Positions 26,212 through 43,770 of a DNA stretch of 64,000 nt are shown in pieces (position 1 is the first letter of the stretch; the number at the start of each line of letters is the position of its first letter). The notes below the pieces were generated by a model that did not search any database, was not told the origin of the DNA, and saw only the letters and a program-made list of their open reading frames with translations. Source of the stretch: Chromatocurvus halotolerans (GTDB taxonomy: Bacteria > Pseudomonadota > Gammaproteobacteria > Pseudomonadales > Halieaceae); NCBI RefSeq assembly GCF_004340525.1, contig NZ_SLWX01000010.1, positions 62,001-126,000 on the forward strand. Direction: 5' to 3'. Position numbers and translations under genes: made by a program.

Positions 26212-27256
26212 ACGCCTTCGGTGGCGCAAAGTGCGGGGGCACCTCACCCGTCAGGGACGTCAGAAAACTCACGATCTCCCCTGTAGCGCCGTCGTCAGGA
26301 TCTCGCCCGAGCTGGACCCGTGACATGACGCGAACTGCCTGCGCCAGCGTCGGCACCGAGGCATCGTGGAAATAGGGCGCCGTCTCTGCGACGTTGCGCA
26401 ATGAGGCAACCCGGAAGACATCGCGGTCCGCGTCGCGGCCGCTGACCTCCATCACGCCGTGATGCGGCTCGTCGGAGCCCGTATGCGCCCAGTAATCCGC
26501 CATCAGGCCAAACTTCTGCAGTGACTGGCCGCCCAGTAGTTCTCCGTTGTGGCAACCGGCGCAGCCCACATCCATGAAACGCCTGAGACCCGATTTCTGT
26601 GTTTGCGTCATCGCGGCATCGTCGCCCGTCAGCCACGCATCGAAGGGGGCCGGCGTTCGCAGGGTGCGCTGGTAGGCTTCCAGCGCCTCGCCGTAATGAT
26701 CGACGGCCAGCGGCTCATCGGCATCGGGAAAAGCCGCTGCGAACCGCGAGCGGTAACCGTGCTCGATCAGCGACGCCAGGATATCCTCCCGCTGATCAAA
26801 ACCCATCGAGCCAGTAATGGAACCCAGCGCCTGCGCCTTTCCGGACGGACGGTCAGCCAGCCAGCGCAAGCCCGCACCCGCTGTCTGCGTATTGAAGACG
26901 GTCATTGAGTGAAAGCCGGTCCGGCCGCCGCGGGCAGTTGTGGAGCGAGCACGCCGATCCGAGCCATGGTCCTCGATCAGATGGCAGCTGGCGCAGGCGG
27001 TGTCGCCACTTGAGGACAGGCGGGGGTCCCAGAACAGGGCTCGCCCAAGGGTTGCCTGCGGAGCATGGCGCTCTTCAGGAGTCACCTCCGGGATGGCAAT
27101 AAAGTGGGTTCTGGCCCGTTCCCGCAATGTTACGTCGGCCCGCGCAATCTCTATCGGCCTTACGAGAACGGCACAGACTGCCAGCAGGAGCAACCGGCGC
27201 CAACACGGCATCAACAGCCGGATTGACGACGGTGCCCAACCACTTTTCGTCGCCAT
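26189..27256 (-). CDS. Di-haem cytochrome c peroxidase/MauG family protein
   Basis: 355-aa exported protein. After a signal peptide (hydrophobic RLLLLAVCAVLV, cleavage probably near ARA-D at about residue 40), it has two c-type haem sites, CASCH (about 88-92) and CAGCH (about 230), and the family motif RVASLRNVAETAPYFHD. Members are bacterial cytochrome c peroxidases, MauG (TTQ formation) and MbnH (tryptophan oxidation in the methanobactin system). I cannot assign one of these roles from sequence. It starts four bases after the stop of the TonB receptor upstream, so receptor and di-haem protein are co-transcribed. ATG at 27256 chosen; 27211 is an alternative. Confidence 0.88.
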   Translation of the reverse strand: MATKSGWAPSSIRLLMPCWRRLLLLAVCAVLVRPIEIARADVTLRERARTHFIAIPEVTPEERHAPQATLGRALFWDPRLSSSGDTACASCHLIEDHGSDRRARSTTARGGRTGFHSMTVFNTQTAGAGLRWLADRPSGKAQALGSITGSMGFDQREDILASLIEHGYRSRFAAAFPDADEPLAVDHYGEALEAYQRTLRTPAPFDAWLTGDDAAMTQTQKSGLRRFMDVGCAGCHNGELLGGQSLQKFGLMADYWAHTGSDEPHHGVMEVSGRDADRDVFRVASLRNVAETAPYFHDASVPTLAQAVRVMSRVQLGRDPDDGATGEIVSFLTSLTGEVPPHFAPPKAFIGGHKP

Positions 27257-27259
27257 CAA

Positions 27260-29782
27260 CTAGAACTGAACTGCCACACGTCCATACAGGAAGCGCCCGT
27301 TAAAGCCGAACGGCGAAAAACCCGAGTAGGGAAAAATGCGATCAAAGGTCGTGGGCGTCAGTCCCGCCGCCAGGTCGTTGGACACCGTATCATCGGGATA
27401 GACGTCGAAAAGATTGTTCGCACCCACGGCTGCAGATATGTTGCGGGTGAAGGAATACGCCACCTCGAGATCGGTGATCCACTGTGCATCCAGCTTTTCA
27501 TCGAACTCCGCGGACGTGCCCGGGTCGAGTGTCTCACCGAAGCGGGTGAAGCGAAGGTCTACCGTCAGATCGTCGTAATACCACGCCCCCCCCAGGTTGA
27601 TCTTGTCTTCCGGACCTCCATCCTCGAAACGCGTGACTTCACGGCGGGCAAACAGGTTGTCCTCGGTAACGCCAACCTGCGCCAGCTCTTCGGGCGGCGG
27701 CAGTACGCGAGTCACTTCGTTATCGGTGTAGTTATAACCGCCGTTCAGACGCAGCGACCCCCACTCCCCCAGCTCAAGGTTGTAGGTGGCGACAACATCA
27801 AAGCCGCTGGTCTCACTATCAATGCCGTTCAGGAAAAAGCGGGCGCGGTTGGCACCTGTACCTGCCAGCAGTTGTTCTATCCCCGGACCGGAAAGGTTCT
27901 CGGACAGAACAATGCGGTCATCTATCTCAATGTAAAAGTAGTCTGCGGTCACGGAGAGCCCGTCCAGTGGCTGCCACGAGAAGCCACCCGAGAAGGATAT
28001 ACTGGTCTCTTCCTCCAGGCCCGGTGAGCCAAGCGCCCTGGCGACATCACTGTCAGGGCGAAAGGTGCCGGTTTCCGTCGGCACGGCGTCAACGAAAACC
28101 GTGGCGATAGAGGTAAAAGATTGCTGCGCCAGTGATGGTGCGCGAAACCCGGTCGATGTGGATGCCCGCAGGGCAAAGCCCTCCACAATCTCATAACGCG
28201 TGGCGAACTTACCGTTGAAGGTTGAGCCGAAGTCCGAATAGTCCTCAAACCGGCCGGCAACCGCCACGTTCCAGCGCGAGGTCACGTCGGCATCAATATC
28301 GAGATACAGACTGATGTTATCGCGACTGGCATCGACCTCCGACTCGGGAGTGAAGCCCGGAAACACCTGGGACCCGGCAGCGCGATCTTCAAACTCACCG
28401 AGTTGATAACTACCGGGCTCTCCGGCCTCTATCTTGTAGGTGTCATCCCTGTACTCAACACCGAAAGCGACGTTGACCGGGCGACCGCCAAGGTCCAGGA
28501 GCTTCGACGCACCCGCATTGAACACCAGGTGCTCATTGATCAAGGTACCGGCGAAGAACTGCGTGGGACTGCTCGGGCCGAAAGAGGCATTCAGCGTGTT
28601 CTTGATCGTATAGTCCAGCTCATTGCCACCGACCAGCAATGAAGCGTCCAGGTCCCAGCCATTCCAGTCACCGCGTACACCGGCGGCCACGCTGTAATCC
28701 GTGATATCGGTAGTGATGAGCGGCAGGAAGCCATCCGGGTAGATTTCTGTCCAGTTGCGGCTGTCCTGGGCGCGGCGATAAAAGCCCGCACTCTCGCCCT
28801 GACGCTCACCGTAACTGCCGAAGCTGTAAAGCTCCCAGTCATCGTTCAACGGCACGCCGGCGTTGTAGAACAGCGCGATATCCTCGACATCCGCATTGCC
28901 AAAGCGGTGATTGATGCGATCAAAATCCAGTTCCCTGGGATCGGCACTACCATCCGGAAGGCTCGCGTAATTGTTTCGCGGGTCAAAGCCGCTGCGATTG
29001 GTGGGATCGCGATCACGGAATTCACCGGCGACGTTGAGAAAGCCACCGTCACCGAGCTCAACGCCGCCGTTCAGTCGGACGGTCAGTGTATCGCCGTCAT
29101 TGACATTCCGATCACCACCCTGCGTCAACTGCAGGGCGCCATCAGGCCCGATCGCGGCGCTTCCCAGCCCCGGCGTACCATCCATTTCGCTGTCGTATTC
29201 GCCATAGGTGACCGACGCGCCGAAGCCGCTAGAGGCATCCTTGAGAACGATGTTGATAACGCCGGCGATGGCGTCGGACCCGTATTGCGCCGCGGCACCG
29301 TCTCTCAACACTTCAATACGCTTGATGGCATTGGCGGGAATCATGTTCATATCCACGGCAGAGGACCCGCGCCCCACAGAGCCGTTCAGGTTCAGCAACG
29401 CAGAGGCATGCCGACGCTTTCCATTCACCAGAACCAGCGTGTGATCGGGGGCCAGGCCGCGCAGCGTTGCCGGGCGCACGTGATCGGTGCCGTCAGTGAC
29501 GGAGGGCAGCGGAAAATTGAAGCTGGGCAGAAGGCGGTTCAGCAACTGGTTGGTTTCAGTGATACCGGTGGACATCAACATGTCCTCGGAGATCACGTCA
29601 ATCGGCACAGCGCTCTCGAGAATTGAGCGATCAGAGCGCCGGGTCCCCGTGACAACCACCTCCTCGACCATCGCCTCGGCACCCGGCTCCTGCGCGCTAG
29701 CCGTTGCGGCGCAAAGTGCAGCGGTAATGCCGGCCATGGCCGCGGCCAGTGGTCGTCTTGCAAAGTTATCCTGTCGCATCAT
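27260..29782 (-). CDS. TonB-dependent outer-membrane receptor
   Basis: About 840 aa. Signal peptide (PLAAAMAGITAALCAATASA-Q), then the TonB-box region EEVVVTGTRRS, a plug domain with RIEVLRDGAAAQYGSDAIAG (about residues 145-164) and a long beta barrel that ends in a terminal aromatic residue (GRVAVQF). The start is placed at the ATG at 29782 (MMRQDNFARR), which has GGGGA upstream; an ATG at 29809 lacks one. The ligand is unknown. There is no Fur-like site that I can see upstream. It forms a two-gene unit with the MauG-like protein. Confidence 0.9.
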   Translation of the reverse strand: MMRQDNFARRPLAAAMAGITAALCAATASAQEPGAEAMVEEVVVTGTRRSDRSILESAVPIDVISEDMLMSTGITETNQLLNRLLPSFNFPLPSVTDGTDHVRPATLRGLAPDHTLVLVNGKRRHASALLNLNGSVGRGSSAVDMNMIPANAIKRIEVLRDGAAAQYGSDAIAGVINIVLKDASSGFGASVTYGEYDSEMDGTPGLGSAAIGPDGALQLTQGGDRNVNDGDTLTVRLNGGVELGDGGFLNVAGEFRDRDPTNRSGFDPRNNYASLPDGSADPRELDFDRINHRFGNADVEDIALFYNAGVPLNDDWELYSFGSYGERQGESAGFYRRAQDSRNWTEIYPDGFLPLITTDITDYSVAAGVRGDWNGWDLDASLLVGGNELDYTIKNTLNASFGPSSPTQFFAGTLINEHLVFNAGASKLLDLGGRPVNVAFGVEYRDDTYKIEAGEPGSYQLGEFEDRAAGSQVFPGFTPESEVDASRDNISLYLDIDADVTSRWNVAVAGRFEDYSDFGSTFNGKFATRYEIVEGFALRASTSTGFRAPSLAQQSFTSIATVFVDAVPTETGTFRPDSDVARALGSPGLEEETSISFSGGFSWQPLDGLSVTADYFYIEIDDRIVLSENLSGPGIEQLLAGTGANRARFFLNGIDSETSGFDVVATYNLELGEWGSLRLNGGYNYTDNEVTRVLPPPEELAQVGVTEDNLFARREVTRFEDGGPEDKINLGGAWYYDDLTVDLRFTRFGETLDPGTSAEFDEKLDAQWITDLEVAYSFTRNISAAVGANNLFDVYPDDTVSNDLAAGLTPTTFDRIFPYSGFSPFGFNGRFLYGRVAVQF

Positions 29783-29894
29783 TCTGTCCCCGTATGTCGT
29801 GTCGCTCATCGATTCGTCGTTGTTGTTGTTATCCGTTTGTTCCCAGAACGTAGATAATCGAACACGGTGGGACAATGGCGAATCCTGTGAACAA

Positions 29895-32615
29895 TTACCT
29901 TTGCCCTCCCGATGCAGATTTCTTGCCGTGTCTGTGTGGCCGCCGGCGCCACCACTTCGCCGCCTCGTCGAGCGCGAGGAGAGACAGGGCAACAGCGAGC
30001 AAAAGACTCCACAGTGACAGGGAAACCGGCTCCACTGCGAGCACGTCCCGCAGCACAGGCATATACATCGCCCCGATATGCACACCCTGCGCGAGAATCA
30101 CCGCCAGGATCAACAGCCGGTTGGCGGCAAAGGGAACCTGCAACACGGAGCGGGTTTCTGAGCGACAGCTGAAGGTATGCACATTCTCGAACAGCACCAT
30201 CAGCAGCAGCACCAGGTTACGGGCCTCAAATTCGCCAATACCGAAGAACTCAAACATCACGAAAAACAGCAGGAACGCCATGCTCCCCATGTAACCGCCC
30301 GAAATAAGGGTCTGTCGGATCATGCGCTGGTTGAAAATGCGTTCCCGGACGGGACGTGGCTTGCGCTTAAGAGCCCCGGGCTCCACGCCCTCTGAGGCCA
30401 GTGCAACGTCCTGAATCCCGTTGGTGACAAGATTCAGCCAGAGCAGCTGTATCGCGGTGAGCGGCAGCGGCAGTCCGGCGAAAAGCGCAAGAAAGAACAG
30501 CAGGACCTCGGCAACGCCGGTTGACAGCAGCAGCCAGGTCACCTTGCGGACATTGTCATAAGCACAACGACCCTGCTCAATGCCATCGACAAGTGACGCA
30601 AAATTATCATCGCCGAGGATCAGCGAGGCGGCCCGGCGCGCCACGTCGGTGCCCCCGCGACCCATGGCAACGCCAATATGCGCCGTCTTCAGTGCTGGGG
30701 CGTCATTGACGCCATCCCCGGTGACCGCAACGAGCTCCCCGGCATCCTGCAGCAGCTCAACGATCTGCGTTTTCTGCGACGGCTCAACCCGGGCGAATAC
30801 CGGCGCGGCGCGAACACGCGCGGCGAGTGACTCGGGTTCATCTTCAAGTTCGCGCAGCGCAGCGCCGGTCAGCGCCTCCGACGCCTCATCTGCCATACCC
30901 AGTTCGCGGGCGATCGCCAGTCCCGTGGCAGGATGATCGCCGGTGATCATCCGGATCTGTACGCCTGCCTCGCGGCAGCGCTTTACCGCCTCGGGCACCT
31001 CTTCCCGGATCGGATCGATCAGTGCCGCAAAACCCACGAACCCGAGTCCGGCAAGGTCATCCGCACCGTAATCGTTGGCTGTGTCTGATACGCGCCCAGT
31101 GGCGACGGCAAGCACGCGATATCCTTCCTGCGCGAGGCACTCCTCGCGTTTAAGCAGCGCCTCCTGGTCGACCTCTGCACACATCGGAAGGACCGCTTCC
31201 GCAGCGCCCTTGACGTGCGCCACCACGGCATTATCGACCTCATTGAAGGTTGCGGCGAAGCGCCGCTCGGAACTGAAGGGCAGACTGGCGACCTCCGGGT
31301 AACGCTCGAGCATTCGCCCACGCTCTTCGTTGGTCTTGGCGCCCAGCACGAGAAAGGCCAGATCGACGCTATCGCCCTCGCTTGCCGCTGGCTCACCCGC
31401 CTTGTCAAAGCGGATACACGCGTCGTTGCACAGCATGCCGGCACGTACCAGGTGCGCTATGGCAGCTGCGCATTCATCATGTGGCTCGCTGTCATCACGA
31501 TGTATGCGACCGTCAGGCCTGTATCCCTCGCCGGAGACGTCCCATTGCTCGCCACTGGCGAGTTCCAGGCGCTGTATGGTGAGCTGGTTTTCCGTCAGCG
31601 TTCCTGTCTTGTCGCTGGCGATCAGCGTACAGGACCCGAGTCCCTCAACGGCGGCTAACTGACGCACAATCACATTGCACCGCGCCATCCGCCGGGTCGC
31701 AAGCGCCATCGCCACAGTGATGGCGATAGGCAGGCCCGCAGGAATGGCCGACACCGCGAGGGCCACGCCGAGAAAGAATATCTGTTCGGGTGTCTCACCA
31801 CGCAGGAACTGGGTGATACTCAACAGAACAACGGCAAACAGCACGAAAAGCGCAATCTGCCGGGTGAGACGGCGCAGCTTCAGCACCAGCGGCGGTGCCT
31901 GCGACTCACCGTGCGCCAGGGACTCGGCGATCTGTCCGACCTCGGTGTCCTTGCCAATACGACAGACAATGCCCCGGGCGTTGCCGCTCATGACGGTGCT
32001 GCCGGCGAAAGCCATCGTGGTGCGCTCGTTGACCACGGCGCCTTCTTTCACCTCGTCGTCTGCGTTCTTGGCTACCGGCGTGGATTCGCCGGTCAGCGGC
32101 GCCTCGTCCACCTCAAGGTCCTGGCTGGAAAGCAGGCGCAGGTCCGCCGGCACAGCGTCGCCCTGTGCAAGCTCCACGATATCACCGGGCACCAGCCCTG
32201 TGGCATCCACCCGCTCCTCGCGCCCGGCTCTCACTGCCCGGGTGCGCACCCGGATCATGTCCTGGAGGGCCGCTGCGCTCGCCTCGGCGCGGCCTTCCTG
32301 AAGGGCACCGATCCCCGCATTGATCAGCAACACCGCAGCAATGAATGTCGCGTTGGCGAGGTTATCAAGCGCCAGCGAGACTGCGGCAGCGATGAGCAGA
32401 ATGTAGACCAGCGGATCCTTGAACTGACGCAGAAAAATGCGTAGCGCGCCCGCACGATTCTCCTCGGGAAGTGCGTTCGCACCCCAGGAAGCCTGACGCC
32501 TCTCTACCTCGTCGAGGGCAAGTCCGTCGGTGTCACTGTCCAGCCTGTCGAGCGCCTCGCGGCCGGTCAGGGCGTGCCAGGCCTCTTCAGTAGGGGCGTT
32601 TCGATCATGCGCCAT
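29895..32615 (-). CDS. Cation-transporting P-type ATPase (P2-like), unusual ion-site residues
   Basis: 906-aa P-type ATPase: N-terminal cation-ATPase domain, A-domain loop VDEAPLTGES, phosphorylation motif SDKTGTLTENQL (about residues 340-351), hinge region GDGVNDAPALK and about ten membrane helices. Overall it resembles SERCA/PMR1-type Ca2+ pumps. The M4 ion-site motif is PAGLP instead of PEGLP and M6 reads NLVTNG instead of NLVTDG, so two carboxylates that ligate Ca2+ in SERCA are absent. The transported ion is therefore uncertain. The start overlaps the end of the HdeD-like gene by 11 bases. Confidence 0.88.
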   Translation of the reverse strand: MAHDRNAPTEEAWHALTGREALDRLDSDTDGLALDEVERRQASWGANALPEENRAGALRIFLRQFKDPLVYILLIAAAVSLALDNLANATFIAAVLLINAGIGALQEGRAEASAAALQDMIRVRTRAVRAGREERVDATGLVPGDIVELAQGDAVPADLRLLSSQDLEVDEAPLTGESTPVAKNADDEVKEGAVVNERTTMAFAGSTVMSGNARGIVCRIGKDTEVGQIAESLAHGESQAPPLVLKLRRLTRQIALFVLFAVVLLSITQFLRGETPEQIFFLGVALAVSAIPAGLPIAITVAMALATRRMARCNVIVRQLAAVEGLGSCTLIASDKTGTLTENQLTIQRLELASGEQWDVSGEGYRPDGRIHRDDSEPHDECAAAIAHLVRAGMLCNDACIRFDKAGEPAASEGDSVDLAFLVLGAKTNEERGRMLERYPEVASLPFSSERRFAATFNEVDNAVVAHVKGAAEAVLPMCAEVDQEALLKREECLAQEGYRVLAVATGRVSDTANDYGADDLAGLGFVGFAALIDPIREEVPEAVKRCREAGVQIRMITGDHPATGLAIARELGMADEASEALTGAALRELEDEPESLAARVRAAPVFARVEPSQKTQIVELLQDAGELVAVTGDGVNDAPALKTAHIGVAMGRGGTDVARRAASLILGDDNFASLVDGIEQGRCAYDNVRKVTWLLLSTGVAEVLLFFLALFAGLPLPLTAIQLLWLNLVTNGIQDVALASEGVEPGALKRKPRPVRERIFNQRMIRQTLISGGYMGSMAFLLFFVMFEFFGIGEFEARNLVLLLMVLFENVHTFSCRSETRSVLQVPFAANRLLILAVILAQGVHIGAMYMPVLRDVLAVEPVSLSLWSLLLAVALSLLALDEAAKWWRRRPHRHGKKSASGGQR

Positions 32616-34128: not shown

Positions 34129-35667
34129 TTGACCAGATTCATTACCTGCACGTTTATCCTGTTACTGACGAGTATCGCCCCCGATGTGGACGCCAGCTAT
34201 GGCTACTATGTCGGCAAGAACCTCACGGCCGACGGCAGCGTGCTGCTCGGCGGCACCGGCGAGGAGCCCTCCAGTCACTGGCTGGAGATTGTCCCCCGCC
34301 AGATGCACCCGGCCAATGCAACGATTACCGTCGGCGCCACGGCGTCTGCCTCGCTGCCTGCCCGGCTCATCGAGATTCCACAGGTGCGGGAAACCTTCCG
34401 CTACATCACGATGAACTACACCAGCTATGCCGGCTTTCCGGCGCCGATAACCAATGGCGGTCTCAACGAGCACCAGGTCGCGATTCGCGACATCTGGTCG
34501 CCCTCACGGGATGAGCTGGTGGCAATGACACCCAGCGACCAGACGGGCCCCAACTACAGCGATCTTGCCCGCATAGCGCTGGAGCGCGCGGAAACAGCGC
34601 GGCAGGCCGTGGAAATCATCGGCGCACTGATCGACGAGTTCGGCTACACCACCTACGGCGGCAACTCCCACCTGATCGCCGATGCGAACGAAGGCTGGGT
34701 CGTTCTGGAGTTCGCCGGCGGGCAGGGTCTCTGGGTCGCAGAGCGGCTGGGCGCGAATGATGTCCGGGTCAGCTATCCCGGATACATCGGGGACGTTCCT
34801 GCAGACTACCTCAGTCGTGATGACTGGATGGGGTCGCCAAACCTGATTGCTTTCGCCATCGAGCAGGGCTGGTACGATCCGGACCCGGCACAGCCCTTCA
34901 ACGTCGACAAGGTCTATGGTCTGGGCGGCACCATGCGTCACCCGGGCACCAAGTACGTCTCGCCGCAGGTGCTAGAGGAGGAGTTCCGGGCCATGGCCCC
35001 GGTGACACCGGAGGCGATGATGGCCATGGTTCGCGACCCACGGATTGCCGATGACCACGCGGGTTACGGCCAGGTCGCCCAGCTGCGCGATGATCTTCCC
35101 CACCCGGACCTGGCACTGCTCTGGGTCGCCCCTACGGGTTCGGTCACCGCACCGTTCCTGCCGTGGTGGATCGGTACGCGGGATGTCCCCGCGGAGTACG
35201 GCCAGCATCGCTACCTCACTGAGGGTTCAGGGCCGAACTTTATCAACCCCGACTTCCAGCTGCGCGAGGCGACCGAGTTCGCGGGCCGCGTTTTCAAGCG
35301 TCTGATGTACTATACCTGCGCGTATCCGGAAGAGCTCCTCGAGCGTGTCCAGGGCACACTGCAGGCATTCGAAGACAACACTCGCTCCGCTCTGCCGCAC
35401 ATCGAACGTGCCGCCGCCCTCGCTTATGCCGCCGGTGAACCGGCCGCCGCGCAGGCGCTGCTCACCCGAGAGAGCCATGCCCGCGCCGCCGAAGCGCTGT
35501 CCATTGGCCGCGATCTGGTGGCCGGCATCGGCACCGAGGTGCGGCTTCGCCATGGCATTCCGGGGGTGCCGAATGCGGGCGATATCAACGAGGGCGGACC
35601 CGCCGTCAGCTGCCTGGTCGGCGCAGATCCCGACCGATTACCCGCAGATCGGGCCGGGAAGCGATGA
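34129..35667 (+). CDS. Secreted C69-type Ntn-hydrolase with Ser at the predicted mature N-terminus
   Basis: 512-aa relative of the C69 dipeptidases. The signal peptide ends VDA-S (residues 20-23), after which the mature chain would begin SYGYYVGKNLTADGS. In classical C69 enzymes the corresponding position is the catalytic Cys (a CT...VGK..SxDGS pattern), so here Ser23 would be the nucleophile. Other family-like blocks are GGTGEEPSSHWLEIVP, TNGGLNEHQVAIRD and YGGNSHLIADANEGWVVLE. Start: TTG at 34129 with CGGAG eight bases upstream. The stop overlaps the ATG of the TPR-sulfotransferase. A clear paralogue is encoded at 37378-38892. Confidence 0.78.
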   Translation: MTRFITCTFILLLTSIAPDVDASYGYYVGKNLTADGSVLLGGTGEEPSSHWLEIVPRQMHPANATITVGATASASLPARLIEIPQVRETFRYITMNYTSYAGFPAPITNGGLNEHQVAIRDIWSPSRDELVAMTPSDQTGPNYSDLARIALERAETARQAVEIIGALIDEFGYTTYGGNSHLIADANEGWVVLEFAGGQGLWVAERLGANDVRVSYPGYIGDVPADYLSRDDWMGSPNLIAFAIEQGWYDPDPAQPFNVDKVYGLGGTMRHPGTKYVSPQVLEEEFRAMAPVTPEAMMAMVRDPRIADDHAGYGQVAQLRDDLPHPDLALLWVAPTGSVTAPFLPWWIGTRDVPAEYGQHRYLTEGSGPNFINPDFQLREATEFAGRVFKRLMYYTCAYPEELLERVQGTLQAFEDNTRSALPHIERAAALAYAAGEPAAAQALLTRESHARAAEALSIGRDLVAGIGTEVRLRHGIPGVPNAGDINEGGPAVSCLVGADPDRLPADRAGKR

Positions 35668-37355
35668 GCATGCCCGAGTCCCTCGATCCCCGCTTGCGCA
35701 ATGGTGTTGGACAGCATCGCAGGGGTGATGTCGCGGCGGCAGCAAGGATCTACAAGGCTATCCTCGACCGGGAACCGGAACACTGGCAGGCGCTGCATTA
35801 CCTGGGTCTCGCGCGGCTGCAGCAGGGCCAGCTCAAGGAGGCCGACAGCCTGTTGTCACGCTCTGTCAGCATCGAGCCGCGTAACGCCAATGCCTGGAGC
35901 GATCTGGGCAGTGTCAGGGTGAAGGCCGATGCACCACAGGAGGCTCTGGCTCCCTTCTCAAAAGCGCTCGAACTGTCACCTGAGCATCCCGATGCGCTGA
36001 ATAACATGGCCCGGGCGCTGCGGCTGCTGAGCCGCTTCGACCAGGCGCGACCACTGCTGGAGCGGCTGGTAGCGCTGCAGCCGGGACAGCCTGGGCCCCT
36101 GCGGGCACTTGCCGATGTGCAGACGAAAAGCGGCGATGTCGTGTCGGCGATAGACACCTTTCAGGAAGCCCTGAAAATCGACCCGGACGATCCGCGCATC
36201 CGCCTGGGCCTGGGTGATGCCTGCGAGTCTGCGGGGCGCTTTCGACAGGCGCGGATGCAATACCTTTCCATTCTGCGCCGGGAACCGGAGAGTCCGCTGG
36301 CCCTGTCCCGACTGCTGCAGATGCGCGAGGGTGAAGTGGAGCCGGAGTGGGTCCAGACAGCGCAGCGACTGGCAGAGAGTACCGCCACGCCAGAGGACGG
36401 CCGCATTCGACTGAATATTGCCCTTGGCTATCATGCGGATCGCGCCGGCGAGTACCGCACGGCCTTTCGCCATTTGCGGCGCGGCTACGACGCTCAGGCA
36501 GCGCGCGCACCCTTCGACAGCGACGGCTACAGGCGCGCGATTGACCGGCTGATCGACACCCTGGACCACGCGTTCTTCGCGGAAGCCACGGATTCGGGGC
36601 TCGACTCGCAGCGCCCGGTCTTCGTCGTCGGCATGCCCCGCTCCGGAACCACGCTCACCGAGCAGATCCTCGCCAGCCATTCCCGGGTCGCCGCCGGCGG
36701 TGAGATGTCGATGCTGCTGAAAGTGAGCTACCAGATCGCCGAACTGTCCCGCTCCGGCAAACCCTACCCGGAGGGCCTGCTAACGACCGGACGTGTCTCG
36801 CTACGACGCATGGGCCGGCGCTACCTCGAGGCGCTGGAAAAGGTGTCAGAGAGCGCCGACCGGGTCACCGACAAGCTGCCATTCAATTTCATGCACCTGG
36901 GCGTGATAGCCCTGCTGTTCCCGGGCGCAAAGGTGATTCACTGCCGCCGCCATCCGCTGGACAACTGCCTGTCCTGTTACTTCACCAGCTTCGCCGACCA
37001 GATCCACTTCGCCAATCGGCTCGACACACTGGGACACTACTATCTCGACTATCACCGACTGATGCAGCACTGGCACGACGTACTGCCGATCGAGATTCTG
37101 GATCTGCCGTATGAGAGCATGGTGGAGGACACCGAGGGTCAGGTCCGGAAACTTCTGGACCATTGCGGCCTCGCATGGGAAGACGCCTGCCTCGACTTTC
37201 ATCGCACGGAACGAGGGGTGCGCACCCCCAGCCGGTGGCAGGTGCGACAGCCGATCTACCGAGGCTCAGTGCAGCGCTGGCGCCATTACGAGGAAGAGCT
37301 GGAGCCACTGCGGAAAATCCTGTCCCCCATTCTGCCCGTCGGGGACGCGGCCTGA
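35664..37355 (+). CDS. TPR-containing sulfotransferase (second of three)
   Basis: 563-aa protein. Residues about 1-260 are TPR repeats (for example WQALHYLGLARLQQGQLKEA, NAWSDLGSVRVKADAP, PDALNNMARALRLLSRFD). The sulfotransferase domain starts near 315 with a canonical PAPS loop FVVGMPRSGTTLTEQILA, followed by TDKLPFNFMHLG and the 3'-phosphate motif KVIHCRRHPLDNCLSCYF (about 415). The ATGA overlap with the upstream C69-like gene implies translational coupling. TPRs probably recruit a protein or peptide partner, so a proteinaceous acceptor is possible. A strong hairpin covers its stop codon (37344-37375). Confidence 0.87.
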   Translation: MSMPESLDPRLRNGVGQHRRGDVAAAARIYKAILDREPEHWQALHYLGLARLQQGQLKEADSLLSRSVSIEPRNANAWSDLGSVRVKADAPQEALAPFSKALELSPEHPDALNNMARALRLLSRFDQARPLLERLVALQPGQPGPLRALADVQTKSGDVVSAIDTFQEALKIDPDDPRIRLGLGDACESAGRFRQARMQYLSILRREPESPLALSRLLQMREGEVEPEWVQTAQRLAESTATPEDGRIRLNIALGYHADRAGEYRTAFRHLRRGYDAQAARAPFDSDGYRRAIDRLIDTLDHAFFAEATDSGLDSQRPVFVVGMPRSGTTLTEQILASHSRVAAGGEMSMLLKVSYQIAELSRSGKPYPEGLLTTGRVSLRRMGRRYLEALEKVSESADRVTDKLPFNFMHLGVIALLFPGAKVIHCRRHPLDNCLSCYFTSFADQIHFANRLDTLGHYYLDYHRLMQHWHDVLPIEILDLPYESMVEDTEGQVRKLLDHCGLAWEDACLDFHRTERGVRTPSRWQVRQPIYRGSVQRWRHYEEELEPLRKILSPILPVGDAA

Positions 37356-37375
37356 GTCACATCCCAGGCCGCGTC
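37344..37375. terminator. 11-bp hairpin between convergent sulfotransferase and C69 genes
   Basis: GACGCGGCCTG / CAGGCCGCGTC, perfect 11-bp stem with a 10-base loop. It includes the sulfotransferase stop codon and lies three bases from the end of the convergent gene. No U-tract on either side. Probably a bidirectional barrier or 3' stabiliser. Confidence 0.5.
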
Positions 37376-37377
37376 GG

Positions 37378-38892
37378 TCATTCAACCCGGCAATTCACGT
37401 AGGGACCGTAGCGTGTACCCATCTCGCGGGCATCCGCCGGAACTTCCGTCCCCTCGAGGAGCCTGTGGCGGGCTTCGATGCTGCCAAGCAGAGCGTCACC
37501 CAGCGCCAGCGCGGCCCGCGCACGGGCTGACGAATAATCGTCGATCACCGCCCGCGCCATCGCCGGTTCCCCGGCGTTGAACAGCACCAGTGAGCGGGAC
37601 TCAATCGCGCCAGCCTGCTCGATGCTCTGGTCCTCGAAGGCGGTCAGCGCCTCGGTGACCTCGGGCAGGAATCTGGCCGGCGCGTCACAGGTGTAGTACA
37701 TCAGCCGCTTGAACAGGCGTCCCGCAAATCGCGAGGCTTCCTGCACCGCGAAGTCCGGCCGCACGAAGGTCGATGCCTGCCCCTTGGTCAGATAACGGTG
37801 CTTGCCGAACTCCGGCAGCACCTCGGAACCCGCAATCCAGTAGGGGACGAAGGGTGCCGTCACGGAACCCGTGGGCGCCACCCAGAGCATTTTCAGCTCC
37901 GGGTGTGGATCCTGCTGCCGGATATGTGCCACCTGGCCATAGCCCGCGGCATCCGAGGAAATCAGCGGATCGCGCACCGCATTCATCATCTGCCGCAGGG
38001 TAACACCGCCTTCCATTGCCTGCTGACGCAGCCGCGCCTCGATGATGCGTACGCCTTCGGAGCGGCCTTCACCGTTACCGTAAACCGCGTTGGCGTCGAA
38101 GGGCTCACCGGAATCAGGGTCCCACCAGCCCTGATCCACGGCAAAGGAGATGAAGTTCGCCGACCCCATCCATCCCTCGCGCTCCCGAAAGTCTACCGGC
38201 ACTTCATGGATGTAGCCTGGGTACGACATCCGCACCTCGTCGGAACCCAGGCGCTGTGCAATCCACAGCCCCTGACCACCGGCAAAGTTCAGCACCACCC
38301 AGCCCTCGTTCGCATCCGCGAACAGGTGCGAGTTACCGCCGTAGGTGGAATAGCCGTATTCGTCCATCAACCCGCCGATAATCGTCACCGCCTCACGGGC
38401 ACTGGTAGCGCGCTCCATGGCGATGCGGGAGAGGTCCGAGTAATTGGGACCCCTCTGGGGCTCCGGCGTCATCGCCGCCAGCTCGGGTCGCGAGGGTGCC
38501 CAGATGTCCCGAGCGGCCACCCCGTGCTCGTTCAGTCCACCATTGGTCAGCGGCGGTGGAAATCCTTCGTAATCGGTGTAGTTCATCGTGATGTATTTCG
38601 CCGTCTGTGGGACCTGCGGTATCTCGATGAACTCACCGGGGTAGGTGGCGCGCCCGTCAACGCCGACGGAAATGGTTGCCCCTTCAGGATGCGTGCCGGC
38701 CGGGACGATCTCCAGCCAGTGGCTGGAGACCTCTTCGCCGGTTCCGCCGAGCAGCACGCTGCCGTCGGCAGTGAGGCCACTACCGACGTAGATGCCGTAG
38801 CTGGCTAGCGCCGGTGCCGCGAAGGCCAGCGTAAGCGCGAGGCCGCAGCCAGCACGCAGAATCCGCTGCATATCACTATCCATGCCCATCAT
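37378..38892 (-). CDS. Secreted C69-type Ntn-hydrolase paralogue with Ser at the predicted mature N-terminus
   Basis: 504-aa paralogue of the protein at 34129-35667. The signal peptide (LALTLAFAAPALA) is followed directly by SYGIYVGSGLTADGS, so cleavage after ALA would leave Ser31 at the N-terminus in the place of the Cys nucleophile of C69 enzymes. Shared blocks: GGTGEEVSSHWLEIVP, YITMNYTDYEGFPPPLTNGG, YGGNSHLFADANEGWVVL, VAPTGSVTAPFVPYWIAG. The stop of the TonB receptor gene overlaps its ATG (TGATG), so receptor and hydrolase are co-translated. The likely substrate is a peptide or amide that reaches the periplasm. Confidence 0.78.
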   Translation of the reverse strand: MMGMDSDMQRILRAGCGLALTLAFAAPALASYGIYVGSGLTADGSVLLGGTGEEVSSHWLEIVPAGTHPEGATISVGVDGRATYPGEFIEIPQVPQTAKYITMNYTDYEGFPPPLTNGGLNEHGVAARDIWAPSRPELAAMTPEPQRGPNYSDLSRIAMERATSAREAVTIIGGLMDEYGYSTYGGNSHLFADANEGWVVLNFAGGQGLWIAQRLGSDEVRMSYPGYIHEVPVDFREREGWMGSANFISFAVDQGWWDPDSGEPFDANAVYGNGEGRSEGVRIIEARLRQQAMEGGVTLRQMMNAVRDPLISSDAAGYGQVAHIRQQDPHPELKMLWVAPTGSVTAPFVPYWIAGSEVLPEFGKHRYLTKGQASTFVRPDFAVQEASRFAGRLFKRLMYYTCDAPARFLPEVTEALTAFEDQSIEQAGAIESRSLVLFNAGEPAMARAVIDDYSSARARAALALGDALLGSIEARHRLLEGTEVPADAREMGTRYGPYVNCRVE

Positions 38893-41198
38893 CACATTGT
38901 GTAGCGCAGGCCGACGGTAATGCGCTGCTGATCAATGAACATGATGCCAAAACCGGGATTCCCCTGCTTCGCGACCAGAATGTCCTCGTCGAAGACGTTC
39001 AACCAGTTCGCGTAGATCTGGAAGTTCTGCAAGCGGCCGTCGCGGGGCGCGTAGGATGCATTGAGGTCAAAACGCTCGTGGGCGCCAGCCTCCAGCGCAC
39101 CGAAGCGATTAACGTTGGTCGGACCGTCAATGAAGCTGTAGTCACCGCTGATTTTGAGCGTGGCACCAACCCGAAGACCTGCCATGGGGCCTTCCAGGAA
39201 CTCGTAGGTGCTGATGATGGCGCCCGCGTGCTCCGGCACGGTCCGCGGTGGTGCCGAGCCACTGTTGGGGTCGGTGATATTGATATCGGACCAGGCGTAG
39301 TTCGCGGAGACGTTCCAGCCGGGCAGTATCTCGCCGACGATCTCGGCTTCAAGGCCCGTGGCCTCCTGCGCACCTTCCAGGACCGTGCTGCCGAACCCAC
39401 CGAAGGAGCCGAGGAAGGAACTCGACACCTCGATGTTGGTGATCTCGTAGTCATACAGCGCCAGCGAGGCACCGACCGCGCCGCCGAACATCTCGGTCTT
39501 CAGGCCGATTTCGTGCTGCTCCATCTCCTGCGGCGCGCTCACGTTGTTGCCGTCAGCATCGGTGAAGGTTTGCGGCTCAAAGCCCTCGCTGTAGCTGTAA
39601 TACACCCGCGCGTCGTTGACGAAGCCCCAGTCGTCCAGAATGTCGTAGGTGGCACCAAACCGATAGACCTCCTGCTCGAAACCGACGTTGGTCACCTCCG
39701 GCGGATCGTTCACCACATTGGCATTGATGGGAATGGTGGTGACCGTGTTGTTCTTCTGGTAGAGCACCCCGAACATCAGCCGCAGCCGGTCGGTAGGCTT
39801 GAGAAGCACCTGGGCGCTCAATAGAAGGTCCTCCGTCTCCTCCAGTAGTTCCTGGCGAACACCGAAGACCTCCTTGCGACTGCCCTGGATCGGGTTGAAA
39901 TCCGAACCGTCTGCGAAGCGCGGCTGGCCGTCGTAATCGTCACCGTACATGCCGATAGTGCCAAACCCCTGGAACGCGGAATTCAGCAGCTGGAATCTGT
40001 CCGGGTTTTGGTTATCGCTGTACTCGGCGGCGAGAAAGAACTCGTGGTTCTTGCCCATGAGATCGAAATCGCCACCGAGGGTCTGGCGCAGGGTGAGTTC
40101 CTCACCATCGCGCTCGATGTCGTAGGTATAGATGTAGATCTCGTCGTCACCCAGCGAGTAGGCACCGAAGGGGCCGAACGGATAGAAATAGGACAGGTCC
40201 TCGTCGTACTTGTTCCACGCCACCTGGGTCGTGGAATTCCAGCCGTTGGCGAATTGGTGCTCGAGTTCAAGAATGCCGAAGTGCATATCCAGCGTTTCCC
40301 GGGACTGATCCGGGTGCGAAAAATACCACTGCTCTGGATCCACGTCGGGCAAGGCCAGCGAGCCGTCCGGCTGCTCTATCAGTGCACCACCATCCCAGGG
40401 ATCCATCGTGCGTTCCTGATGGTGCAGGGTTGCGCGGAGCGTCGTCATCGGCGTGATGTCCCAGGCAACGGAGCCCAGCACCATGAACTTCTCGTTGGGA
40501 AAGTCTTCCTGGTTGATGTCGAGCGGCAGATCGAACTCATCGTACTTGACCACGAAGCGACCGGATACAGTGCCGGCATCGTTGAGCGGGCCGCCGATGT
40601 CCAGGGAGTAATTCTGCGTATCGTAGTTGCCAAACTCCACGCCGACTTCCGCGCGCGGGGTTCGCAGCGGCCGCTTCAGGATGGAGTTGATCTCACCGCC
40701 GAAGGAGCCAGTCACGCCGTACAGGACCGTCGCCGGGCCGCGGACAATCTCGATGCGCTCGGCGGCGTAGGACTCGACGGAAGTCAGAATGTTGCCAAAC
40801 AGGATGTTGTTCACGCGGTGGCGGCCATTGAAGATGCCGCGCATCACGATCTGCTCGAAGCCGAAACCGAAGCCGGACCGCTGCACGCCCGGCACCAGGT
40901 CCGTGGCCTCGTAGGCGGAATCGGCGTTGATGGTGTTCATCATCTCCGGCGTGATGACCGTGACCGCCTGGGGGGTGTCGATCAGTTGCATGTCCAGACC
41001 GGTCGCGGTGTTCTGCTCTTCCGGCCGGAACTTGCGCGCGACGCCGCGCACAACGATTTCTTCTATCGTCCCCTGGTTGGCCTGCTGCACGGCTTCCTGT
41101 GCGGACACTCCCGTGCTCGCGGTGCCGGCAGAAACGAGCGCGGTGGACGTGAGAAGTGACTGTAAATAGCGACTGCGTGAAATTGGTCGGCTGGACAT
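38892..41198 (-). CDS. TonB-dependent siderophore-type receptor
   Basis: About 768 aa. Signal peptide (SLLTSTALVSAGTASTGVSA), TonB box EEIVVRGVARK (about residues 45-55), then LIDTPQAVTVITPEMM and RIEIVRGPATVLYG in the plug, a pattern typical of siderophore-type receptors (FhuE/FpvA class). The barrel ends GLRYTM, lacking a C-terminal Phe or Tyr as last residue. ATG at 41198 chosen; 41225 is possible and has GGGGC upstream. It overlaps the C69-like hydrolase, which suggests that the imported ligand is a peptide-like or amide compound. The predicted promoter lies at 41388-41416, leaving a leader of about 180 bases. Confidence 0.9.
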   Translation of the reverse strand: MSSRPISRSRYLQSLLTSTALVSAGTASTGVSAQEAVQQANQGTIEEIVVRGVARKFRPEEQNTATGLDMQLIDTPQAVTVITPEMMNTINADSAYEATDLVPGVQRSGFGFGFEQIVMRGIFNGRHRVNNILFGNILTSVESYAAERIEIVRGPATVLYGVTGSFGGEINSILKRPLRTPRAEVGVEFGNYDTQNYSLDIGGPLNDAGTVSGRFVVKYDEFDLPLDINQEDFPNEKFMVLGSVAWDITPMTTLRATLHHQERTMDPWDGGALIEQPDGSLALPDVDPEQWYFSHPDQSRETLDMHFGILELEHQFANGWNSTTQVAWNKYDEDLSYFYPFGPFGAYSLGDDEIYIYTYDIERDGEELTLRQTLGGDFDLMGKNHEFFLAAEYSDNQNPDRFQLLNSAFQGFGTIGMYGDDYDGQPRFADGSDFNPIQGSRKEVFGVRQELLEETEDLLLSAQVLLKPTDRLRLMFGVLYQKNNTVTTIPINANVVNDPPEVTNVGFEQEVYRFGATYDILDDWGFVNDARVYYSYSEGFEPQTFTDADGNNVSAPQEMEQHEIGLKTEMFGGAVGASLALYDYEITNIEVSSSFLGSFGGFGSTVLEGAQEATGLEAEIVGEILPGWNVSANYAWSDINITDPNSGSAPPRTVPEHAGAIISTYEFLEGPMAGLRVGATLKISGDYSFIDGPTNVNRFGALEAGAHERFDLNASYAPRDGRLQNFQIYANWLNVFDEDILVAKQGNPGFGIMFIDQQRITVGLRYTM

Positions 41199-41375
41199 TG
41201 TCTGAGGACCCTCTGTTGAAAGCATAAAACGCCCCATAAAGACAGCGCCGTCGGACATCGGCGCTTCAATAGCGGCTTGCGAATAGTTGACCTTGTGGAG
41301 TTCGCGGGGGTTCTTCTGGCCGCTTGAAACAACACTACCCTCTGGGCATGAACGCCAGCAGATATTGTTTACACC

Positions 41376-41390
41376 ACTAAAAAATTTAGT
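41376..41390. promoter_or_regulatory. AT-rich palindrome at the TonB receptor promoter
   Basis: ACTAAA-AAA-TTTAGT, a perfect 6-bp inverted repeat in otherwise GC-rich DNA. It overlaps the last bases of the predicted -10 element and the start site of the receptor gene, a position suited to repression. It does not resemble the Fur consensus. Confidence 0.45.
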
Positions 41391-41416
41391 ATACATCATG
41401 TACTTGCGCGAGCCAA
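41388..41416 (-). promoter_or_regulatory. Predicted sigma-70 promoter of the TonB receptor and C69 hydrolase operon
   Basis: The minus strand reads TTGGCT (41416-41411), a 17-base spacer and TATACT (41393-41388). The 41199-41518 interval, which has no gene, holds this promoter, the palindrome at 41376, the hairpin at 41430 and the divergent promoter at 41475. Confidence 0.55.
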
Positions 41417-41429
41417 ATTCAGCGATGCG

Positions 41430-41472
41430 CCACTCTGGGGTCAGTTCCCGGTAGGACCTGGCCCCAGGGTGG
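41430..41472. repeat. 15-bp imperfect hairpin between two divergent promoters
   Basis: CCACTCTGGGGTCAG and CTGGCCCCAGGGTGG form a 15-bp stem with two G-U wobbles on the plus strand and a 13-base loop. It sits between the promoters of the TonB receptor and of the trigger-factor-like gene. The GGGGTCAG core resembles REP-type palindromes, but I see only this copy. Confidence 0.5.
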
Positions 41473-41474
41473 CC

Positions 41475-41483
41475 TGCTATACT
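41475..41483 (+). promoter_or_regulatory. Extended -10 promoter of the trigger-factor-like gene
   Basis: TGCTATACT is an extended -10 element (TG-N-TATACT). Transcription would start near 41490, about 30 bases before the ATG at 41519. No good -35 is visible, as expected for this promoter class; the upstream bases are part of the 41430-41472 hairpin. Confidence 0.5.
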
Positions 41484-41518
41484 GCGCGACATTTCTCACC
41501 GACGCTTCGGAGTTCACC

Positions 41519-42409
41519 ATGGAGCCCGCCCGCATCCTCGCTGAACACACAGACGGCCTGCGCCATGAATACCGGGTAACTCTCGACCCGCAGCAGGTCA
41601 GTGAGGCCGTGGATGCGCAGCTGCGAAGGGCCGGGGCAGGGCTGGCAGTGCCGGGTTTCCGGCCCGGACGCGCCCCGCTTGCGGTCCTGCGCAGCCATCA
41701 CGGCAGGCGCCTGCGTAATGATGTCGTCGACCGCCTTGCCATTGGCGTCGCTCGCCGCCTGATTGCTGAGCGAGGTCTGTCCCCACTCGGCCGCCCGTCC
41801 ATTCACATCGACACTGCCGCGCCGGAAACCTTCGTCCTGACGGTAGAGGTCACGCCCGAAATCACGCTGGGCCACATGGCAGACATCCACATCCATCGGC
41901 TGCAGGTCGAGAATGGCGATGCCGGGAGCAAGGACCTCGCCCAGGAATATGTGCGACGACAGTTGTTCGACGCGCTGATCGCGCAATGCGCCTTTCCGGT
42001 GCCGGGAGACTGGGTCGACACGGAGTATGCGGTGCTGATCGCCGGCTACCGCGATGCGGTTGGCGAGGAACCGGATCCGGCAACCCGCAGTGATCTTGAA
42101 GCCATCGCCGAGCGTCGGATCCGGCTGGCGCTTCTGCTGTCCGAGGTCGCTCGCGGCAATGCGATTGAGGTACCCCGGAGCGAAGTCGAGCAGCGGGTCG
42201 AGCAGATTGCAGACCGCGACCCGGAACACCAGAACGAGATCATCGATTACTACCTGGATCACCCGACCGCCATGGCCGAGCTTCAGTCGCCCCTGCTGGA
42301 GGCGCGGGTCGTGGACTTCATTCTTGAGCACTGCCATATCAGCGAGGAAACGGTGGACGCAGAGCACCTCAGAATGCTGGTGCTAGGTGATACCGCGGAT
42401 GCGTCGTGA
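41519..42409 (+). CDS. Trigger-factor-like chaperone lacking the PPIase domain
   Basis: 296-aa protein. Residues 1-115 match the trigger factor ribosome-binding domain, including its docking signature as GFRPGRAP (about residues 46-53), and VEVTPEITLG at the domain end. From about 140 on the sequence matches the substrate-cradle C-domain (YVRRQLFDALIAQCAFPVP, RRIRLALLLSEVARGN, EIIDYYLDHPTAMAEL). The FKBP-type domain, about 100 residues between them in normal trigger factor (about 430 aa), is absent. Its stop is overlapped by the GTG start of the third TPR-sulfotransferase. Probably a specialised paralogue that hands a client to that enzyme (inference). Confidence 0.8.
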   Translation: MEPARILAEHTDGLRHEYRVTLDPQQVSEAVDAQLRRAGAGLAVPGFRPGRAPLAVLRSHHGRRLRNDVVDRLAIGVARRLIAERGLSPLGRPSIHIDTAAPETFVLTVEVTPEITLGHMADIHIHRLQVENGDAGSKDLAQEYVRRQLFDALIAQCAFPVPGDWVDTEYAVLIAGYRDAVGEEPDPATRSDLEAIAERRIRLALLLSEVARGNAIEVPRSEVEQRVEQIADRDPEHQNEIIDYYLDHPTAMAELQSPLLEARVVDFILEHCHISEETVDAEHLRMLVLGDTADAS

Positions 42410-43770
42410 GTGCCGCTTCAGACCGGCGGACGCTGCTGCAGAAAACCCTGCAGCAGCCGACAAACCCGGCCATCCATGAGCAGCTCGCCCGCGTGTTGCT
42501 CGCGCAGCGGGATTTGACGGCCCTCGCCGCGCTGCAGTCCGTGCTCGATGAACGCTTTGGCGATCACCCTTTCACCCACCTGATTGCCGGCCACGCGGCC
42601 AAGGCACGCGGCGATGCAGACGCTGCCGCGCAGCGCTATCGTCGGGCTCTGGCACTGCAGCCTGCCTCCGGCGAGGCCCAGTACAACCTGGTTGACCTGG
42701 AAGTCGACCTGCAGAGCGCCGAACGCAAGCGCATTGCTGAACTGGCTGAAAGCCCTGCTGGAGATACACTGCCAGCCGCAGACCGCATCAATATTCACTT
42801 TGCGCACGCCCGTCTGCTTGAGCGGGCGGGTGAGGCGGAGCCGGCCTTCGCTCATTACCGGCTCGCCAACGACCTGGCGAAGGCAACGCTTGACGAACGC
42901 GGCATCCGCCACGATGCCGCGAGCGCCGAACGACAGCTGCAAGCCGACCTGAAAAACTGGCGCGCCGGGTTGTTCGAGAACCCCTTGCCGCCTCCCGGCA
43001 TCGATCTGACGCCGGTTTTCGTGACCGGTCTGCCCCGCTCGGGGACCACGCTGGTCGAACAGATTCTCGCCAGCCATCCGCAGGTCTGTGCGGGCGGCGA
43101 ATTGACGCTGGGGCCAGGGGTGCAGCAGGCCTTTCGCCAGCAGCTCGGTATCGGACCTGCCGACCCACTGCCATCGCCCACGGATACGGCGCTGCGCGAA
43201 GCGCTCGCGCGCGCCCGCGAGCAGTATCTGAATGGGTTGTTCGAGCACGGACTGGACGCTCGCTGGGTGGTTGACAAGCTGCCAGCCAATGCAAGGATTT
43301 CCGGCTTTTTACGCCTGCTGTTCCCCGACGCGCCAATTATCCACTGCCGGCGCGCGCCCCAGGCACTGGCCTGGTCGCTGTATGCGGCCAACTTTGCAGC
43401 GCACGAGGCCTGGTACCACGACCTCAATGACATGGCTGGCGTCTTTCAGCGCCACGACCGCTTGATAGCGCACTGGCGAACCCTGCTGCCGCCGCCTTTC
43501 ATCGAGTTGACCTACGAGACACTGGTGCGGGCACCGGACGTGCAGATCCCTCGCCTGCTGGCTGACTGTGGCATTCCTTTCGACGCGGCCACGCTGCAGC
43601 CGGAGTTGCTTGACCGACCGGTCTTCACTGCCAGTCATGCCCAGGTCCGCAGGCCGATCCACAGCGCTGCCATCGCGCGTTGGCGGCCGCAGGCGAAACA
43701 TCTGGTGCAGTTCGCATCAGTCGATGACGCTGAAGAAGCTCAGCCATCCTCATTAAATGCCGAGCGGTGA
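42406..43770 (+). CDS. TPR-containing sulfotransferase (third of three)
   Basis: 454-aa protein: short TPR region (about residues 15-110, for example NPAIHEQLARVLLAQRDL and ARGDADAAAQRYRRALALQP), then a sulfotransferase domain with canonical loop FVTGLPRSGTTLVEQILA (about 200-217), VVDKLPANARISGFL and PIIHCRRAPQALAWSLY (about 305). GTG start overlapping the TGA of the trigger-factor-like gene, so the two are made together. The 3' end overlaps the convergent deacetylase gene by 31 bases. Confidence 0.86.
   Translation: MSAASDRRTLLQKTLQQPTNPAIHEQLARVLLAQRDLTALAALQSVLDERFGDHPFTHLIAGHAAKARGDADAAAQRYRRALALQPASGEAQYNLVDLEVDLQSAERKRIAELAESPAGDTLPAADRINIHFAHARLLERAGEAEPAFAHYRLANDLAKATLDERGIRHDAASAERQLQADLKNWRAGLFENPLPPPGIDLTPVFVTGLPRSGTTLVEQILASHPQVCAGGELTLGPGVQQAFRQQLGIGPADPLPSPTDTALREALARAREQYLNGLFEHGLDARWVVDKLPANARISGFLRLLFPDAPIIHCRRAPQALAWSLYAANFAAHEAWYHDLNDMAGVFQRHDRLIAHWRTLLPPPFIELTYETLVRAPDVQIPRLLADCGIPFDAATLQPELLDRPVFTASHAQVRRPIHSAAIARWRPQAKHLVQFASVDDAEEAQPSSLNAER

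Follow-up and report, generated by a model that had tools for sequence, protein, structure and literature searches.

In the window, the 64,000-nucleotide stretch of Chromatocurvus halotolerans DNA analysed here, a gene for a trigger factor without the peptidyl-prolyl isomerase (PPIase) domain, termed TFL, ends inside the start of a TPR-sulfotransferase gene, termed ST2. Trigger factor (TF) is the chaperone that receives newly made proteins at the ribosome. We tentatively propose, with a probability of about 0.38, that TFL is a specialised and probably horizontally acquired TF paralogue serving one locus, where it would hold a nascent client for sulfation by ST2.

Organisation of the locus

TFL belongs to a six-gene locus of two C69 peptidase paralogues, two TPR-sulfotransferases, a TonB-dependent receptor and TFL itself, a setting that an earlier sequence-only reading of this DNA had missed. 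The features are as follows, in window positions.

34129..35667, + strand: C69b, peptidase C69 paralogue of C69a (about 57% identical); in 5 of 5 loci
35664..37355, + strand: ST1, TPR-sulfotransferase with a 4-bp overlap with C69b; Sulfotransfer_3 E 1e-47; in 5 of 5 loci
37378..38895, - strand: C69a, peptidase C69 family protein; PF03577 E 7e-15; in 5 of 5 loci
38892..41219, - strand: TonB-dependent receptor, siderophore-receptor type, divergent from TFL; Plug E 3e-14; in 5 of 5 loci
41519..42409, + strand: TFL, PPIase-less trigger factor; ATG start, 296 aa, Trigger_N and Trigger_C, no FKBP
41654..41677, + strand: ribosome-docking signature GFRPGRAP, TFL residues 46-53, read from the sequence
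42406..43770, + strand: ST2, TPR-sulfotransferase; GTG start, 454 aa, Sulfotransfer_3 E 2e-37

The reading frame of the receptor is open up to 41492, and its homology starts near 41219. The receptor scored 155.8 bits against TIGR01783, under the cut-off of 223.5, and its relatives in the PDB are FhuA/FpvA. All six genes occur in the same relative order in loci L025 (genome G076) and L030 (G426), and in both, as in the window, the receptor gene adjoins TFL and is transcribed divergently from it. L026 (G009) also holds all six genes, with the TFL-ST2 pair relocated next to ST1 and its overlap intact. The fifth locus, L139 (G016; L139:5130-7117), has the other five genes, including an ST2 of 40.8% identity, with no TFL between receptor and sulfotransferase; neither TFL nor a remnant of it was found there, even with HMMER filters off. 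TFL is therefore accessory to the locus and not strictly required. A tree of the C69 proteins did not separate loss of TFL in L139 from its original absence, and no operator palindrome was conserved in the intergenic region between TFL and the receptor.

The TGA stop of TFL and the GTG start of ST2 share a 4-bp GTGA overlap (within GCGTCGTGAGTG), as the sequence-only reading had described, and the overlap is retained in four genomes. This conserved coupling says that TFL is presumably made together with ST2. The sulfotransferase domain of ST2 (PF13469, E 2e-37) carries the PAPS-binding motif GLPRSGTT at residue 208. TPR_11 and TPR_15 matches to the window ST2 are weak (E about 1e-5, under the gathering scores), and some TPR models exceed the cut-off in the orthologues of L030 and L139.

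Domain structure and predicted fold of TFL

Pfam models placed Trigger_N (PF05697, E 3e-23) at residues 8-134 and Trigger_C (PF05698, E 1e-17) at residues 138-270 of TFL, and no FKBP domain was matched. In a profile alignment with solved structures, residues 6-137 and 272-426 of E. coli TF were matched and residues 138-271 had no counterpart; the missing segment therefore comprises the PPIase domain with the linker on either side of it and roughly 25 residues from the start of the C-domain. Pfam and the sequence thus bear out the initial claim that the FKBP domain is absent and the docking signature GFRPGRAP retained. A "complete C-domain" had also been claimed, and this stood in part: the Trigger_C match and a 282-residue structural alignment to E. 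coli TF agree with it, and the roughly 25 first residues do not. PGFRPGRAP was found in TFL, and the docking motif GFRxGxxP, as defined in PMC11559001, is intact in 4 of 4 TFLs with overall identities of 36-71%.

Against the tig model TIGR00115 (NCBIfam), TFL scored 138.8 bits, under the equivalog cut-off of 180.2, as is expected with one of the three trigger-factor domains missing. Since the PPIase domain is a defining one and was tested for, TFL is classed as a trigger-factor paralogue and not as a full trigger factor. The AlphaFold2 model, built from 25 aligned rows, had a mean pLDDT of 93.6 and a pTM of 0.80. Its top structural match in Foldseek was E. coli TF (E 1e-13); VIA-align gave Z 18.4 over 282 residues against 1w26 (E. 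coli TF), and the N-domain alone gave Z 12.9 against 1oms. TFL is confidently predicted to adopt the trigger-factor fold, and its anatomy says that it is a putative ribosome-docking holdase without an isomerase.

Distribution, selection and origin of TFL

A full-length tig lies on contig C17 of the window genome (45 contigs, 3.91 Mb, completeness 99.99%), and the ORFs after it look like ClpP and ClpX, as judged by eye from their sequences. The normal tig that the sequence-only reading wished to see is thus present, and TFL is an extra TF; the possibility that TFL is the only trigger factor of the organism was ruled out by this tig adjoining clpP/clpX. Two other TFL carriers, G076 and G009, each also hold a full-length tig.

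A profile search detected TFL in 3 of 140 genomes of the family, namely the window genome (G000), G076 (71% identical to the window copy) and G009 (46%). One more copy (36%) was found among 390 genomes sampled from the order, in G426, which belongs to another family, and 369 sampled genomes of the class yielded none besides that of the window. The threshold was strict, and the larger searches considered a limited number of candidates in each genome; weaker members may thus have escaped detection. A single-sequence scan of the contigs of a genome collection gave no TFL match, the 80 of 472 loci retained from a profile scan of the collection comprised canonical TFs and the protein of L055 described below, and the TF matches in plasmid and viral collections were all partial and weaker. 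The three other TFL genomes represent other genera, one of them in another family. The pair therefore extends beyond the strain, as had been put forward for checking: TFL and ST2 with the 4-bp overlap, and with the docking motif kept in TFL, occur in three more genomes, and a strain-specific pair was ruled out by its presence in four genomes over two families.

Between the window and the G076 orthologue (71% identical), TFL showed a dN of 0.195 and a dS of 1.10 (NG86), giving a dN/dS of about 0.18, a rough value because dS is near saturation. The corresponding values of ST2 were 0.197 and 0.98 (NG86), and three other genes of the locus had dN values of 0.07-0.09. Thus, TFL and ST2 are under constraint and evolve faster than their neighbours, at rates similar to each other. 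TFL is not a product of chance, given that the gene and the overlap are retained in four genomes with a dN/dS of about 0.18. In a tree of 288 shared columns, in which TFL has long branches and an unusual composition, the four TFLs formed one clade (100/99) that joined alphaproteobacterial TFs (100/97), and a grouping of TFL with gammaproteobacterial TFs was rejected at p 0.03. This disfavours a recent duplication of the host tig, and horizontal acquisition of TFL is the likelier origin.

Sulfotransferases beside TonB-dependent receptors

Five genes of the window genome are strong Sulfotransfer_3 matches (full-domain E below 1e-20, TPR-type length), and each has one of the genome's 43 Plug-domain genes at a distance of no more than about 3 kb. 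A family survey covered 40 regions of other genomes (L186-L225), chosen by homology to the sulfotransferase of contig C4, with a sulfotransferase called in 39. A receptor was the next gene to the TPR-sulfotransferase, or next but for another sulfotransferase, in 33 of the 39 regions. The regions derive from a few homology groups and do not count as independent cases, but chance alone would produce such neighbours at a level of a few per cent. TPR-sulfotransferases therefore go with receptors, and nearly all of these pairs in the survey are without a TFL. No paper describing a link between TPR-sulfotransferases and TonB-dependent receptors was found in the literature searched.

Tyrosines in acidic surroundings averaged 1.65 in 34 sulfotransferase-adjacent receptors vs 1.0 in 35 receptors (p 0.07, uncorrected for relatedness). 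This enrichment had first been noticed post hoc in the window genome, and with p 0.07 in the other genomes it was not accepted. The five locus receptors (58-84% identity) share an otherwise invariant stretch, YFYPFGPFGAYxLGDDEIYIYxYD, at about residues 344-367, of which the acidic-tyrosine part, GDDEIYIY(T/S)YD, is common to all five. With its tyrosines in acidic surroundings, it may be a site of modification or of ligand binding; a structure prediction of the receptor (pLDDT 32.5) failed to place it in the barrel.

Pairs of a TPR-sulfotransferase and a TonB-dependent receptor stand at several loci of the window genome (window 34129-43770, L123 and L124). The receptor beside the C4 sulfotransferase (L179, G000:C4:139500-143400; YKDHDYYYSEDFD) has the densest acidic-tyrosine sites among 40 receptors of the genome, and a similar stretch occurs in receptors beside orthologues of this sulfotransferase in other genomes (L186-L189). 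At window 23628-30085, a third TPR-sulfotransferase overlaps a PrnB-family gene (PF08933, E 1e-173), which is followed by a gene for a MauG-type di-haem cytochrome and by a further TonB-dependent receptor. A fused sulfotransferase/methyltransferase protein is encoded just before a TonB-dependent receptor at L127:8138-12515.

An isomerase-less trigger factor in another lineage

Among 80 of 472 loci, the sole isomerase-less relative was a TF of about 250 aa on one contig of a Krumholzibacteriota MAG (L055:8542-10642), with Trigger_N, Trigger_C and the motif GFRPGKAP. It lies directly downstream (about 55 nt) of an anaerobic sulfatase maturase (TIGR03942, 476.9 bits vs a cut-off of 349.45). Maturases of this type are known to work on proteins that are still unfolded. 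The L055 TF groups with an Acidobacteriota TF (96/86) apart from the TFLs; the isomerase domain was therefore probably lost twice, although a single MAG contig is a thin basis for this parallel. No paper linking trigger factor with sulfatase-maturating enzymes was found in the literature searched.

Discussion

According to our preferred model, TFL would be produced together with ST2 and dock at the ribosomal exit via its intact N-domain, where its arm-domain cradle would keep a nascent exported protein from its own locus unfolded. The client would most likely be the divergently transcribed TonB-dependent receptor and less likely a C69 peptidase. Its unfolded side chains would stay accessible to cytoplasmic ST2 ahead of Sec export, and loss of the isomerase domain would leave a holdase without a push toward folding. 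We infer ribosome binding, holdase activity, the client and protein sulfation alike. Because ST2 has no signal peptide and would be cytoplasmic, and the receptor and C69 proteins are presumably exported, a protein substrate would be met before export and unfolded, a situation that would suit an exit-tunnel chaperone. The domain content, the docking motif, the TF fold, the separate tig, the conserved overlap and locus and the dN/dS argue for this model, as do the findings that PPIase activity is seemingly dispensable for TF chaperone activity and that the C-domain is the main substrate-holding region (PMC11559001). The model also gains from the receptor-linked sulfotransferases (33 of 39) and from the L055 TF beside its maturase. 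Counted against it are the absence of TFL from L139 and from most sulfotransferase/receptor pairs, and acidic-tyrosine sites that are not clearly enriched (p 0.07); moreover, the target of the TPR-sulfotransferases could be a small molecule instead of a protein.

TFL might instead be an export holdase dedicated to the TonB-dependent receptor (or the C69 proteins), co-expressed with ST2 through the shared locus and with no hand-over. Canonical TF acts on outer-membrane proteins, and the divergent arrangement of receptor and TFL in the window, L025 and L030 fits such a role; we nevertheless consider it unlikely, since in L026 the TFL-ST2 pair left the receptor start yet stayed together with its overlap, which argues that the link of TFL to ST2 is tighter than that to the receptor. 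A role centred on ST2 would be that of a private folding or stability chaperone that holds the nascent TPR-sulfotransferase itself. The pair is indeed the most conserved linkage, with the 4-bp overlap in four genomes, and its members evolve at similar rates (dN 0.195 and 0.197), but L139 has an ST2 without TFL, no such partner accompanies the related TPR-sulfotransferases of the family, and this role is possible but doubtful.

TF also occurs off the ribosome as a free holdase or dimer (PMC11559001), and TFL might have given up its work at the ribosome to become a free adaptor that binds the TPRs of ST2 and a finished peptide or protein substrate. We regard this as quite improbable, because the docking motif, retained in 4 of 4 TFLs at overall identities of 36-71%, suggests selection for ribosome binding. 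There is a very small chance that TFL, which is rare and lacking at L139, where the rest of the locus is complete, is a duplicate in decay that has no specific role; against this stand the dN/dS of about 0.18, the confident fold, and a reading frame and docking motif intact in four genomes of two families.

Compared with bacterial trigger factor (tig; TIGR00115, PF05697/PF05698), TFL has the same GFRxGxxP N-domain, C-domain cradle and fold, but it has no FKBP/PPIase domain, a score below the cut-off and no clpP/clpX neighbour, and it is a second copy in the genome. A survey of 15,575 genomes found 390 with several TF homologues, of which 367 kept only one TF with the docking motif and 23 had more than one (Wan et al. 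2024, PMC11559001). The extra copies were mostly without the N-domain and survive by losing ribosome binding, dosage at the ribosome being limiting (PMC11559001). The extra TFs of Myxococcus and other bacteria resemble TFL as additional homologues with divergent roles beside one complete TF; however, they drop the N-domain and keep the PPIase and C-domain, whereas TFL keeps the N-domain and drops the PPIase (PMC11559001). TFL is rare, and its domain content makes it the reverse of these copies, with the docking domain retained, the isomerase dropped and the gene tied to one enzyme. Chloroplast Tig2 is likewise a truncated second TF with a ribosome-binding domain, but it consists of that domain only and has no chaperone activity (PMC11731035), whereas TFL also retains the C-domain. 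The L055 TF has the same Trigger_N and Trigger_C without FKBP and also adjoins a protein-modifying enzyme; it differs in its separate TF lineage and in its partner, an anaerobic sulfatase maturase. RaxST of Xanthomonas is, like ST2, a bacterial sulfotransferase, and acts before export in the tyrosine sulfation of the peptide RaxX (PMC6637879, PMC4216712). RaxST is encoded with this small peptide and an exporter (raxX-raxSTAB), whereas the neighbours of ST2 are a TonB-dependent receptor, C69 proteins and TFL. No paper joining trigger factor, its PPIase domain and a sulfotransferase was found in the literature searched.

Isomerase-less TFs may, though this wider reading is doubtful, be a device that recurs: dedicated holdases, bound to the ribosome, each of which presents a single nascent client to the modifying enzyme encoded with it before folding and export. 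With a sulfotransferase as the enzyme for TFL and a sulfatase maturase for L055, this would amount to co-translational client delivery for bacterial protein modification. If the client model is true, TFL would exemplify, in bacteria, a ribosome-bound chaperone that serves a single modification pathway, and would offer a handle on the role of the many TPR-sulfotransferases that stand beside TonB-dependent receptors.
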